From: Thermogemmata fonticola
Lineage (GTDB): Bacteria; Planctomycetota; Planctomycetia; Gemmatales; Gemmataceae
Reading direction: 5' to 3'
Length of the DNA stretch: 64,000 bases
Assembly: GCF_013694095.1 (NCBI RefSeq)
Contig: NZ_JACEFB010000001.1
Coordinates: forward strand, 434,001 to 498,000
How positions within the stretch are numbered: the first letter of the stretch is position 1; the number at the start of each line of letters is the position of its first letter. This document shows, piece after piece, positions 34,953-45,750 of this stretch. Both the position numbers and the translations under genes were made by a program. Below the pieces are notes generated by a model. It did no database searches. It had not been told where the DNA came from and saw only the letters and a program-made list of their open reading frames with translations.

Positions 34953-35044
34953 TCGGAGAAAGAGACGCCGAGGTCGTCCGCCCACGCCCAGCGCGACAGC
35001 CGAAAAATCTATCTGACGCCTGAATCATCCGGAGTATGGGGAGC

Positions 35045-37066
35045 ATGCGCGTACGTATCCTCGTCGAATCTGGCCAGTGTCAGCCGCCTGTCCTGGAGTG
35101 GTCCGGGGATCAGCCCATCACCATCGGACGAAGCCGGGATAATACGATCGTGGTTCGGGATGAACTGGCTTCCCGCTTGCACGCTAAGATTTACTTCGAG
35201 GAAGACCAATGGCTGATCCGGGACTTTAGCCTCAATGGCACCCGCGTCGATGGCGTGCGGGTCCAGGGCGCCCTGCGGCTCCAGGATGGACAGCAGATTC
35301 GCATCGGCGATACCGTCCTGCGCTTCCAGGTGGAACCAAAGTCGAATCTCCAGAGCAAATCCAGTTCGTCCAGTGCCACCTCTCTCACCAACGTCAATCC
35401 CACCGCTTCTTCAGCGAGCGATACTGTCAAAGGCGTGCCGATCAATCCTTATGGCCAAACCAAGGTGCATCCCATACCCGCCGAGCGGACAGCAGTTGCT
35501 GACCCGTATGAGACGGATCGGCAATTCCGCATGGACGAGCTGACGGCTTTATGCAAGTTCATGCAGCAAGCAGTGGAGGTGAAAACGCCCCATGAGCTGA
35601 TCACAGCCGCCCTGCGCGTCATTCTGCAGCAGACAACAGCACGCTTGGCAGGATACCTGGCTTTGGACCCGGACGATCCAGCGCCGCGCGTAGTGCTGCC
35701 CGAATCCGCCTCGGTCGATGTTCCCTTGAGCAAACGCTTGACCGCCCAGGTACAGCGGGAAGGGAAAACAGTTTGGCTGCTCTCGCAGGTGTCGGCCACG
35801 CATTCTCCGACCGATTCGTTGTCCGCGTTTGCCGACGCGCTCTGTATCCCCCTGCGGGCTTCCGGAGAGCCTTTCGCTGCCTTGCACGTGTACCGCACGG
35901 GCCGGGCCTTCACGGAGCGAGACGTCCGCTTCATCGAAGCGTTGAGCGGCTATTTGGCCCATGCCCTGGAATTGCATCGCAGCCGCCGCATCTTGTGGGC
36001 GGAAAACTCCCGCTTGCGGACTCATGTGCCTGCTGCGGACGAGATCATCGGCTCCAGCAATGCAATCACTCAGTTGCGCCAGCAGATCCTCCGGGCAGCA
36101 CCCCAGCCATTTACGGTCCTCGTGCAAGGGGAAAGCGGTTCTGGCAAGGAGTTGGTCGCCTTGGCTTTGCACCGGAACAGCCGGCGGGCCAATGGACCTT
36201 TGGTCGTCGTCAACTGTGCGGCGATCGCTCCGACGCTGCTCGAGGCGGAACTCTTCGGCTACAAAAAAGGAGCCTTTAGCGGGGCCGATCATGACCATCC
36301 CGGTCTCTTCCAGCAGGCTGATGAAGGCACTCTGTTCCTCGACGAAGTCGGCGAACTATCCCTGGAATGCCAGGCGAAGCTGCTCCGCGTCATCGAGGGC
36401 AAGTCTTTCCGCCCCGTGGGTGGCACGAGTGACATCAAAGTGGACGTGCGCATCGTTGCAGCGACCCACCGGAACCTGGAGAAAGAGGTGAAGGCCGGCC
36501 GATTCCGGGAAGATTTGCTCTTCCGTCTGCGGATCATTCAAATTCGCGTGCCACCCTTGCGTGAACATCCTGAAGACATCCCGGAGTTGGCAGAGTTCTT
36601 CCTGGCACGTGTGTCGGCGGAATGCCGCCGCAAGTTCCGGTTGACCCCGGCGGCGATGTTCAAATTGCAATCGTACACCTGGCCTGGGAATGTCCGGCAA
36701 TTGCGGGCCGCCATCGAAAATGCCGCCGTCATGAGCGAAACTGAAGTCATCGATGCGGATGCCTTCAACTTTGGAAGCAGCGATCCTCCTTCTGGCTCGT
36801 ACAAGGGCTTGGACCTACCGGCCAGCTTGAGCATGGAAGACGTGGAAACCTGGGCTATCCGCCGGGCGTTACGCCAGACCGGCGGCAACGTATCGCATGC
36901 TGCCCGCCTCTTGGGCATCAGCCGAGATACTCTCCATACCAAAATCAAAGCGAAGGGAATTGATCGCTTAGCCCTGGCTCAAGGTAATCCTTCACCTCCC
37001 CCGCCGACCCCACGGCCTGCCGTCGCCAACAAAGCAGGTACTAACCCGCCCCATCCCTCAAGCTGA
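35045..37066 (+). CDS. FHA-GAF sigma54-dependent transcriptional activator
   Basis: A 673-residue enhancer-binding protein. N-terminal FHA domain (about 1-100) with GRSRDNTIVV, SRLHAKIYFE and FSLNGTRVDG binds phosphothreonine; residues 160-310 form a GAF-like domain; 330-570 is the AAA+ domain with Walker A GESGSGKELVA, the sigma54-contacting loop GAFSGADHDHPG (GAFTGA variant, Thr to Ser), Walker B GTLFLDEVGEL, and the arginine-finger region. The C-terminus has a Fis-type helix-turn-helix (GGNVSHAARLLGISRDTLHTK). No receiver domain: input is via FHA or GAF, so a Ser/Thr kinase may control it. ATG 35045 follows GGAG by 10 bp; 35036 is an alternative. It could act on the -24/-12 element at 45578. 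Confidence 0.92.
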   Translation: MRVRILVESGQCQPPVLEWSGDQPITIGRSRDNTIVVRDELASRLHAKIYFEEDQWLIRDFSLNGTRVDGVRVQGALRLQDGQQIRIGDTVLRFQVEPKSNLQSKSSSSSATSLTNVNPTASSASDTVKGVPINPYGQTKVHPIPAERTAVADPYETDRQFRMDELTALCKFMQQAVEVKTPHELITAALRVILQQTTARLAGYLALDPDDPAPRVVLPESASVDVPLSKRLTAQVQREGKTVWLLSQVSATHSPTDSLSAFADALCIPLRASGEPFAALHVYRTGRAFTERDVRFIEALSGYLAHALELHRSRRILWAENSRLRTHVPAADEIIGSSNAITQLRQQILRAAPQPFTVLVQGESGSGKELVALALHRNSRRANGPLVVVNCAAIAPTLLEAELFGYKKGAFSGADHDHPGLFQQADEGTLFLDEVGELSLECQAKLLRVIEGKSFRPVGGTSDIKVDVRIVAATHRNLEKEVKAGRFREDLLFRLRIIQIRVPPLREHPEDIPELAEFFLARVSAECRRKFRLTPAAMFKLQSYTWPGNVRQLRAAIENAAVMSETEVIDADAFNFGSSDPPSGSYKGLDLPASLSMEDVETWAIRRALRQTGGNVSHAARLLGISRDTLHTKIKAKGIDRLALAQGNPSPPPPTPRPAVANKAGTNPPHPSS

Positions 37067-43997: not shown

Positions 43998-45308
43998 ATG
44001 AGCCGTGCTGACGCCGAAACCATCTGGTGGGCCGGTGTCCGGGCCGTGGATCCCGGACGTTTGGTGGAACAGGCCCTGGCCCAGGAAAGGAACTGGCACG
44101 GAGCCAGGCGCATCCTGGTGGTGGGTGCGGGCAAGGCCGGAGCGGGGATGGCCGCGGGAGTCGAGCGGGCACTGGCCGACTGCTTGGATCGGGTCAGTGG
44201 CATTGTGAATGTTCCGGCGGGTACTTTTGCCCCTTTGCGACGCATCCGCTTGCACCCCGCCCGCCCTCCTGGCGTAAATGAACCACGCCCGGAAGGCGTC
44301 GCCGGCTCAGAAGAAATGCTTCAGCTTCTCAGTACTGCGGGTCCTGACGATGTCGCCCTCTGCCTGCTGTCCGGAGGCGGCTCGGCCCTGCTTCCCGCTC
44401 CCGCTCCAGGGATCACGTTGGATGAGAAAGTGGCTGTCACCCGGCTTCTGCACCGATGCGGAGCCAGCATCATGGAGATGAACTGCGTCCGCAAACATTT
44501 GTCCCGGATCAAAGGCGGGCAACTCGCCCAAGCCTTCCGCGGGCAGCGCCTCCTCACCCTCATCATTTCTGATGTCGTCGGGGATCCTGTCGATGTGATC
44601 GCCTCTGGCCCCACTGTGCCCGACCCCACGACCTTCGCCGATGCCTGCCAGATTTTGGAACGTTACGGCCTTTGGATGCAAGTGCCCGCTTCCGTCCGGC
44701 AATATCTGGAGGCAGGACGGCGCGGAGAAATTCCTGACACGCCCAAGTCTCTCCCGCCTTCCATCGATTGCCGGATTGTCGGGAACAATCGCCTGGCGTT
44801 GAACAGTGCTAGGCATCAGGCCTTGGCCCTCGGCTACTCGGTCCTGGATTGCGGCGCTTTCATCGAAGGAGAAACTCGCTCCGTGGCTCAAGTTTGCGCC
44901 GGGTTGATTCGCAGCATCTGCCGGGATGGGCAGCCGTTATCGCCGCCCGCTTGTATCCTGCTAGGCGGTGAAACAACGGTGACTTTGGGTCCTACGTCCG
45001 GTCTAGGTGGACGAAACCAGGAATTTGTCTTAGCTCTGTGTGGCTACCTCGATCCTCAGGACATGCGTCGGGTTACCCTGCTGAGCGGCGGAACGGATGG
45101 CGAGGATGGTCCGACCGATGCCGCCGGAGCGGTGGCGGACCTGACTATTTGGCAAAAAGCCGCTGAACTCGGCCTCCGCTGGCAAGAGTGCCTGCAACAG
45201 CATAACTCCTACCACTTCTGGAAACAATCCGGCGGATTGCTCATGACGGGCCTGACGGGCACCAACGTCATGGACCTGCGTGTCCTACTCGTGCATGCCC
45301 TCCAATAA
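43998..45308 (+). CDS. Glycerate 2-kinase (GckA/MOFRL family)
   Basis: A 436-residue kinase that phosphorylates D-glycerate at C2, feeding serine, glyoxylate or sugar-acid breakdown into glycolysis. The N-terminal domain has ILVVGAGKAGAGMAAGVE near 39-56, LCLLSGGGSALLPAPAP near 117-133 and the ion-pair segment CVRKHLSRIKGGQLA near 160-174; LIISDVVGDPVDVIASGPTVPDP near 189-210 is a hallmark. The MOFRL C-terminal domain has LLGGETTVTLG, GGRNQEFVLAL and SGGTDGEDGPTDAAGA. Complete by length. A 42-bp direct repeat precedes it. Confidence 0.93.
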   Translation: MSRADAETIWWAGVRAVDPGRLVEQALAQERNWHGARRILVVGAGKAGAGMAAGVERALADCLDRVSGIVNVPAGTFAPLRRIRLHPARPPGVNEPRPEGVAGSEEMLQLLSTAGPDDVALCLLSGGGSALLPAPAPGITLDEKVAVTRLLHRCGASIMEMNCVRKHLSRIKGGQLAQAFRGQRLLTLIISDVVGDPVDVIASGPTVPDPTTFADACQILERYGLWMQVPASVRQYLEAGRRGEIPDTPKSLPPSIDCRIVGNNRLALNSARHQALALGYSVLDCGAFIEGETRSVAQVCAGLIRSICRDGQPLSPPACILLGGETTVTLGPTSGLGGRNQEFVLALCGYLDPQDMRRVTLLSGGTDGEDGPTDAAGAVADLTIWQKAAELGLRWQECLQQHNSYHFWKQSGGLLMTGLTGTNVMDLRVLLVHALQ

Positions 45309-45577
45309 TTAGCCTAAAACCGACGCGAAACCTTGCATGCCCCGTGCCGCCGCCCGAAAACAGGAACGCGTCGTGTACAAAGTCACGAATTTGAAGCACC
45401 CAAAAAGTCGAGCGAACGTCCACTCAGAACCACGGTCAACCGCCTCGTGGCCTATCGGTAGTTTTTTCACACCGACTGAGCCGAGGAATTGTAAAAGCTA
45501 CAAGCACCCCGCCGTTGGTCGGTGTTCCCCGCCATTTTCTAAGGGTAAAATCGGCCGAATCATACGAGAATGACGAA

Positions 45578-45593
45578 TGGCACGCAAAATGCA
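45578..45593 (+). promoter_or_regulatory. Sigma54-type -24/-12 promoter element
   Basis: TGGCACGCAAAATGCA matches the consensus TGGCACGnnnnTTGCA at 11 of 12 fixed positions, with GG and GC at correct spacing. The expected transcript start is about 45604. It lies in a gap and not inside a supported gene. A sigma54 activator is encoded at 35045-37066. Confidence 0.5.
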
Positions 45594-45603
45594 TAGATTT
45601 TCC

Positions 45604-45750
45604 CTCAAGTTCCCAGACGCAGGTGAGTCCATCTTCTACGGCTGGGGCCGGTTGAGAAGAGGCAGGGCGTGGTCCGGAACCCACGCCGATCGCCACGAGC
45701 GGAGGACAACGGACTTGTTTGGAGACGTTGTTCCTCCGCTTGATGTTTTT
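45604..45750 (+). ncRNA. Candidate structured small RNA under sigma54 control
   Basis: Downstream of the -24/-12 element three inverted repeats follow in line. First, 45632-45660: TCTTCT/AGAAGA around CGGC-TGGG-GCCG. Second, 45666-45687: GGCGTGG/CCACGCC with an 8-base loop. Third, 45699-45739: GCGGAGGACAACG with CGTTGTTCCTCCGC (one bulged base), then TTGATGTTTTT. The last stem plus T-run looks like an intrinsic terminator, giving a transcript of about 147 bases. An open frame covers the region but has no family resemblance. No known RNA family is recognised. This is inference from structure only. Confidence 0.33.
45699..45750 (+). terminator. Possible intrinsic terminator of the candidate small RNA
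   Basis: A 13-bp stem with one bulge (45699-45711 with 45726-45739) and a T-run at 45746-45750, set 6 bases after the stem. Confidence 0.4.

Follow-up and report, generated by a model that had tools for sequence, protein, structure and literature searches.

The window analyzed here is a 64,000-nucleotide stretch of the Thermogemmata fonticola genome, and coordinates refer to it unless a contig is named. On its + strand, a glycerate kinase-type gene with DUF4147 and MOFRL domains by Pfam (43998..45308) is followed by a symmetric activator-type site, TTGTAAAAGCTACAA (45489..45503, +), and a sigma54 -24/-12 promoter of the form TGGCACG-N5-ATGC, TGGCACGCAAAATGC (45578..45592, +), which is conserved in relatives and rare in the genome. 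Next comes a predicted sigma54-dependent non-coding transcript of 147 nt, here called RNA A (45604..45750, +), delineated by its fold and by a covariance model; its predicted start, at about 45604, lies at the right distance from the -24/-12 element. An earlier, sequence-only reading of the locus had described this element, its correct spacing, three inverted repeats, a T-tract and the 147-nt length, all of which we confirmed in the sequence; the upstream site, putatively bound by an enhancer-binding protein, was absent from its list.

Structure and conservation of RNA A

All three inverted repeats are present in RNA A, and the fold as a whole was equaled by 1 of 200 shuffles (z = -3.05). Most of this signal comes from P3, the intrinsic terminator hairpin (45696-45742; with its T-tract, 45696..45750, +), which is very strong (z -6.05) and precedes TTTTT (45746-45750). 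Most other members of the family also have a strong hairpin at the 3′ end, though without conservation of its sequence. P2, with the loop CCGGAAC, contributes next (45666..45687, +; z -2.27, moderate), and P1 (45604..45656, +; z -1.09) is weak and unremarkable when considered alone. The 3′ strand of P1 carries the 5′ half of a module, GGGGCCGGTTGAGAAGAGGCAG (45644..45665, +), that is complementary to the seed of a second small RNA, B, described below; the module includes a GAAGAGG linker that is invariant in the family. The columns of this linker are 96-100% conserved and mostly unpaired, an accessibility that is visible when P1-P2 only are folded and hidden when 100 nt of downstream sequence is added. 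The P2 loop is a second B-complementary element, able to pair with GUUCCGG of B. In agreement with the earlier claim that no known RNA family is involved, Rfam 15 gave no match to RNA A at gathering score; weak matches (SPRY4-IT1, miRNAs) fell far under their gathering scores and were rejected.

A DNA search returned 86% identity in the congener and a trace in one more distant genome. Searched with a pattern for the core that ignored the promoter, 10 of 95 Gemmataceae genomes gave a match and the reversed control gave none; such conservation rules out chance. The covariance model built from these ten copies recognized clear members of the family in roughly half of the 95. Among 47 aligned loci, 84.6% of the cells counted were paired and 138 cells changed on both sides, compared to 36 in shuffles, counts that lean towards the model because the alignment was fitted to it; the covariation score was 0.498 versus 0.146 and dropped sharply when the alignment was slid by one column. 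Most of this covariation sits in P2, where compensatory change is extensive (0 of 500 shuffles), both-side changes are seen in every pair counted, and pairing is kept in 95-96% of cells. In P1, the CCGG/CCGG helix shows both-side changes in three of its four pairs, and support for the outer helix is weak and limited to lineages.

A protein-coding reading of the same DNA was rejected. The 92-amino-acid frame covering the locus is not conserved as a protein; even the congener has an unrelated 5′ half, with a 17-nt insertion, and in distant relatives the stems vary in a compensatory way. The protein frames had been suspected of being artificial, and the comparison bears this out.

Both B-complementary motifs are enriched in A RNAs over shuffles, GGAAC at 1.49 per RNA versus 0.21 and GAAGAGG at 0.94 versus 0.04. 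Outside Gemmataceae, where the A model is weak, A is longer, with about two GAAGAGG per RNA; the signature GGGGYCGG...GAAGAGG often occurs two or more times, and GGGGCCGGAACAGAGAAGAGGC is the form that the invariant motif takes in these outgroups. T. fonticola itself has a single strong copy (next match, E 0.25). The model overlooked one copy (L164, in G023), whose P1 loop contains an additional GAAGAGGC, and thus undercounts A. Conversely, model matches in G177 and G189 (L104, L105) and at L063, L067 and L068 are without the module and were treated as false, as were three weak matches in a phylum sample outside the class. As judged by sequence comparison, a planctomycete-specific distribution of RNA A is supported among the sampled genomes.

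Transcriptional control and genomic context

A GG-N10-GC promoter lies upstream of the core in 10 of 10 copies found with the promoter-free pattern. The near-consensus sigma54 pattern TGGCAYGNNNNWTGCW occurs three times in the 4.8-Mb genome, compared to zero for its reversed control. A site of the form TTGTA-N4/5-T(T/A)(C/G) is present 67-118 nt upstream of the -24 element at 35 of 47 family loci, with 0.4 expected from shuffles. Its spacings cluster at 67, 78, 88-89, 99-101 and 109-113, that is, approximately one helical turn apart; the variant TTGTAACAATT is mostly offset, at 114-118. Such phasing is what an enhancer-binding protein looping to sigma54 polymerase would require. Both marks of a sigma54-dependent unit, a conserved GG-N10-GC promoter and an upstream activator-type site in helical phase with it, were thus found, and, judged by comparison among relatives, the A promoter is real. 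With a promoter at every promoter-blind match and stems that covary, the proposal of a sigma54-driven structured regulatory RNA has held up; wherever computation could have told against it, the outcome favored it, in that the stems and the GG/GC element proved conserved and the covering frame did not.

At several loci (L071, L072, L080-L082 and relatives, one genus-level group), the stretch separating the enhancer-type site from the promoter contains a conserved block, TTTTTCCTATTGAC, possibly the site of a DNA-bending protein. Elsewhere in the T. fonticola genome, at G000:C2:218712 (L148, L100), the sigma54 promoter pattern is matched again, by TGGCACGGTGGATGCA, ahead of a GC-rich hairpin and a terminator-like repeat. 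This element is without the B-complementary module and is possibly another sigma54-driven sRNA.

In most Gemmataceae loci examined, the conserved neighbor is the glycerate kinase gene, on the same strand and usually ending 115-170 nt before the -24 element; no conserved downstream gene was seen in these loci. The sequence-only reading had pointed to the region upstream of the esterase gene as the place to look in related genomes. The esterase adjoins A in the congener only; at the other loci tested, a tblastn query did not detect it. The earlier reading had also thought control through an FHA-domain activator conceivable. An ORF reading as an FHA-GAF-AAA+ sigma54 activator is indeed present 8.5 kb upstream of A (35036-37066, +), and no evidence obtained here links it to A or to the upstream site.

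RNA B and its complementarity to RNA A

The A signature was found in 138 of 298 Planctomycetia genomes (0 with the reversed control), mostly at a second locus as well. The opposite strand of that locus carries a promoter followed by a compact predicted sRNA of about 75 nt, B, which consists of the 5′ seed GCCUCUUCUCUGUUCCGGCCCC, a hairpin and a U-tract. In T. fonticola, it lies at G000:C18:73951-74025 on the minus strand (E 2.2e-19), with the promoter TTGACG-N17-CATAAT. The B promoter is sigma70-type: a TTGACA-type element, almost always with 17-bp spacing, was present at 33 of 38 loci, compared to 0.6 in shuffles; of the five loci that lack it, four belong to genomes outside Gemmataceae. A T-tract follows the hairpin, also at 33 of 38 loci; promoter and T-tract together give the orientation of B. 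The terminator stem covaries, and Rfam holds no match for B. The B covariance model hit 172 of 298 class genomes at E<=0.01 and 155 at E<1e-4; strongly matched so widely, B may be the more important of the two genes. Its seed is invariant, and the A module in the window is complementary to the seed sequence 5′-CUGCCUCUUCUCUGUUCCGGCCCC. In T. fonticola, the loop and 3′ arm of the B terminator hairpin (GGCGATACCCATCAATGAACGGTGG) are repeated just downstream of B (L222). One candidate B target within the window has a seed match at its start codon; several matches of that length are expected by chance in the window, not specifically at a start codon.

A and B tend to occur together. Among 298 genomes, 84 have both, 6 have A only, 71 have B only and 137 have neither (Fisher p 2e-23 without phylogenetic correction, with G177 and G189 kept in the count though treated as false A). 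All six A-only genomes are assemblies broken into at least 530 contigs, and one family, f4, yielded neither RNA convincingly.

Across 34 genomes, the best A:B duplex had a median energy of -47.4 kcal/mol, compared to -31.8 kcal/mol for shuffled A; it lay at or spanned the A module in all 34, and in 28 it beat all 100 shuffles. In T. fonticola, the duplex reaches -50.5 versus -32.5 after shuffling; the module there has UU in place of AACA, which leaves a small internal loop. The GGGG half of the module pairs both within P1 of A and with B's terminator stem, at a cost in energy; in T. fonticola, the net cofold gain once both partners are unfolded was -18.0 kcal/mol, compared to -7.0 +/- 2.9 when the seed was shuffled and -9.8 +/- 3.2 when A was, the best of the A shuffles reaching -17.0. 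B was reached via an A-derived pattern, and its complementarity to the A consensus is therefore partly by construction. Not built in are the B promoter, its terminator, its abundance, the co-occurrence, the extension of the match past the pattern and covariation in the flank. The seed is invariant, and the first variable base beyond it pairs in 25 of 32 genomes, compared to 15.7 on permuting partners (p 0.001, with relatedness left uncorrected), and positions farther out in these genomes gave no covariation signal.

Long perfect mRNA targets for A were considered and rejected. The 14-mer GCCTCTTCTGTTCC was found in 18 genomes, and in 16 of these it was the complement of A itself, one being the new A copy in G023; the remaining 2 of 18, elsewhere, are at chance level.

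Discussion

The sequence-only reading offered no mechanism; the evidence here favors base pairing with another sRNA, and we think it probable that A is a sigma54-induced sponge for B. A has its own promoter and terminator, is predicted to be transcribed and is non-coding by the lack of a conserved frame; partly by construction, it is complementary over an extended stretch to the seed of B, an sRNA predicted at another locus of the genome. From the promoter, structure, conservation, complementarity and co-occurrence, all computed directly, together with the existence and orientation of B, we infer transcription of A, its pairing with B in cells and the direction of regulation. We imagine that an enhancer-binding protein on the TTGTA...TACAA site would activate the -24/-12 promoter, yielding A as a free-standing, intrinsically terminated RNA whose main role would be base pairing with B. 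A would offer the complement of B's single-stranded 5′ seed at two places, the loop of P2 (CCGGAAC) and the linker GAGAAGAGGC, which is left unpaired. Contact there could extend into the GGGGCCGG strand. Conditionally made and presenting one to several B sites, A would titrate B, as a sponge or anti-sRNA does, and free whatever B controls. B itself, predicted to be constitutive and with an exposed CU-rich seed, resembles an sRNA that covers GA-rich ribosome-binding sites; its targets are probably mRNAs in which such sites match the seed. The 71 genomes with B and without detected A count against the sponge reading, as do the energy cost of engaging the GGGG half and the small internal loop in the T. 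fonticola duplex.

The main rival reverses the roles: A would be the effector, acting on mRNAs via GAAGAGG and CCGGAAC, and constitutive B would be the antagonist that restrains it. The same complementarity would fit this, and A is the conditionally made partner. However, half a class shares an invariant B seed whereas A varies, which suggests that B has many partners, A being one of them; B is again found without detected A in those 71 genomes; and the only long complements of the A module are B-type loci, the antisense strand of A and the two chance-level matches. We consider a reversal of roles unlikely.

A could instead be a cis-acting leader or attenuator of a downstream gene, rather than acting in trans, and its context outside Gemmataceae gives this some appeal. 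There A is located elsewhere in the genome, and the next same-strand gene, some 500-800 nt farther along, is time and again one and the same DUF1549-like gene, which we take to be DUF1549-type by sequence recognition. Yet a strong terminator with its T-tract intervenes in most loci read, and in Gemmataceae the conserved neighbor lies upstream, with no conserved gene seen downstream; taken together, these points make a leader quite improbable. At several of the loci outside Gemmataceae (L110, L113, L117, L118, L120, L121, L123), the gap between the A terminator and the DUF1549-like gene contains repeated elements of the TTGCAAAAT-N-ACAC type, perhaps operator sites.

It is just as improbable, in our estimate, that A originated when part of B was duplicated in inverted orientation and that the sequence was kept by descent or for some other reason, with no interaction between the two RNAs. 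Such an event would leave two oppositely oriented halves of a single sequence, as is seen here, but it does not fit a module that stays complementary and a linker that stays mostly unpaired while the surrounding stems vary freely, nor the co-varying flanking base, nor the recurrence of extra partial copies (GGAACAG loops, a second GAAGAGG) in different lineages.

Finally, titration of an RNA-binding protein such as CsrA via GGA in hairpin loops, in the manner of CsrB or RsmZ, has very little in its favor beyond the GGA in the P2 loop and the presence of CsrA in 95 of 95 Gemmataceae genomes: GAAGAGG and CCGGAAC are far above chance and GGA is not (2.83 versus 2.96 in shuffles; 4.85 versus 6.33 outside Gemmataceae), so loop GGA are not present in the number expected of such an RNA, AGGA is depleted, the invariant linker GAAGAGGC is without GGA, and a sigma54 promoter was found upstream of 0 of 20 csrA genes.

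The sponge reading must also accommodate the apparent lack of Hfq. A search of 59 genomes of the class detected no Hfq gene and was positive in five control genomes, so A and B do not answer to the description of Hfq-dependent sRNAs, and titration of Hfq itself, suggested by a linker readable as A-R-N repeats, was rejected. A:B pairing would then be chaperone-free or would proceed via another protein. CsrA, for its part, is often encoded in several copies in the 95 Gemmataceae genomes, in contrast to the missing Hfq gene.

A wider picture can be drawn tentatively, and we hold it with somewhat less than even confidence: in much of Planctomycetia, apparently without Hfq, a constitutive B with a near-invariant seed of about 22 nt would mask ribosome-binding sites rich in GA, and A, as a sponge switched on by sigma54, would relieve the masking, in a class-wide two-RNA circuit without a described relative. 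The work adds two new RNA families, together with a defined promoter for A, its likely enhancer site and exact predictions of the base pairing. A and B offer a way into sRNA pairing in bacteria where no Hfq gene was found, and they would link the sigma54 system of the class to post-transcriptional control.

GlmY/GlmZ and the Qrr RNAs are gammaproteobacterial sRNAs made from sigma54 promoters with upstream enhancer sites. A differs from them in its structure, the lack of Hfq and the lack of an Rfam match. The literature that we searched described no small-RNA circuit for Planctomycetes. A survey of sigma54 regulons that includes Planctomycetia makes no mention in its text of small or non-coding RNA (PMC12316311). 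The Rhodopirellula-1 motif, like A, is a candidate structured RNA from Planctomycetes; it is listed as probably cis-regulatory and as occurring also in Proteobacteria, and it has no Rfam entry (PMC2864571). Closer in proposed function is CrfA of Caulobacter crescentus, a non-coding RNA that a physiological signal induces and that inactivates the SisA-D sRNAs by base pairing (PMC12559287). A would likewise, in outline, be an sRNA sponge acting by base pairing; CrfA and the Sis RNAs were found as Hfq-associated pairs, whereas A has a sigma54 promoter and belongs to a class in which 59 genomes yielded no Hfq gene. Closer in transcriptional control is CrcZ of Pseudomonas, an RpoN (sigma54)-dependent non-coding RNA of 407 nt whose A-rich sites titrate the protein Hfq (PMC4063720). 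A resembles CrcZ as a predicted sigma54-driven RNA with repeated sites for a post-transcriptional regulator; in A, where Hfq is absent, those sites are instead the complement of another RNA.
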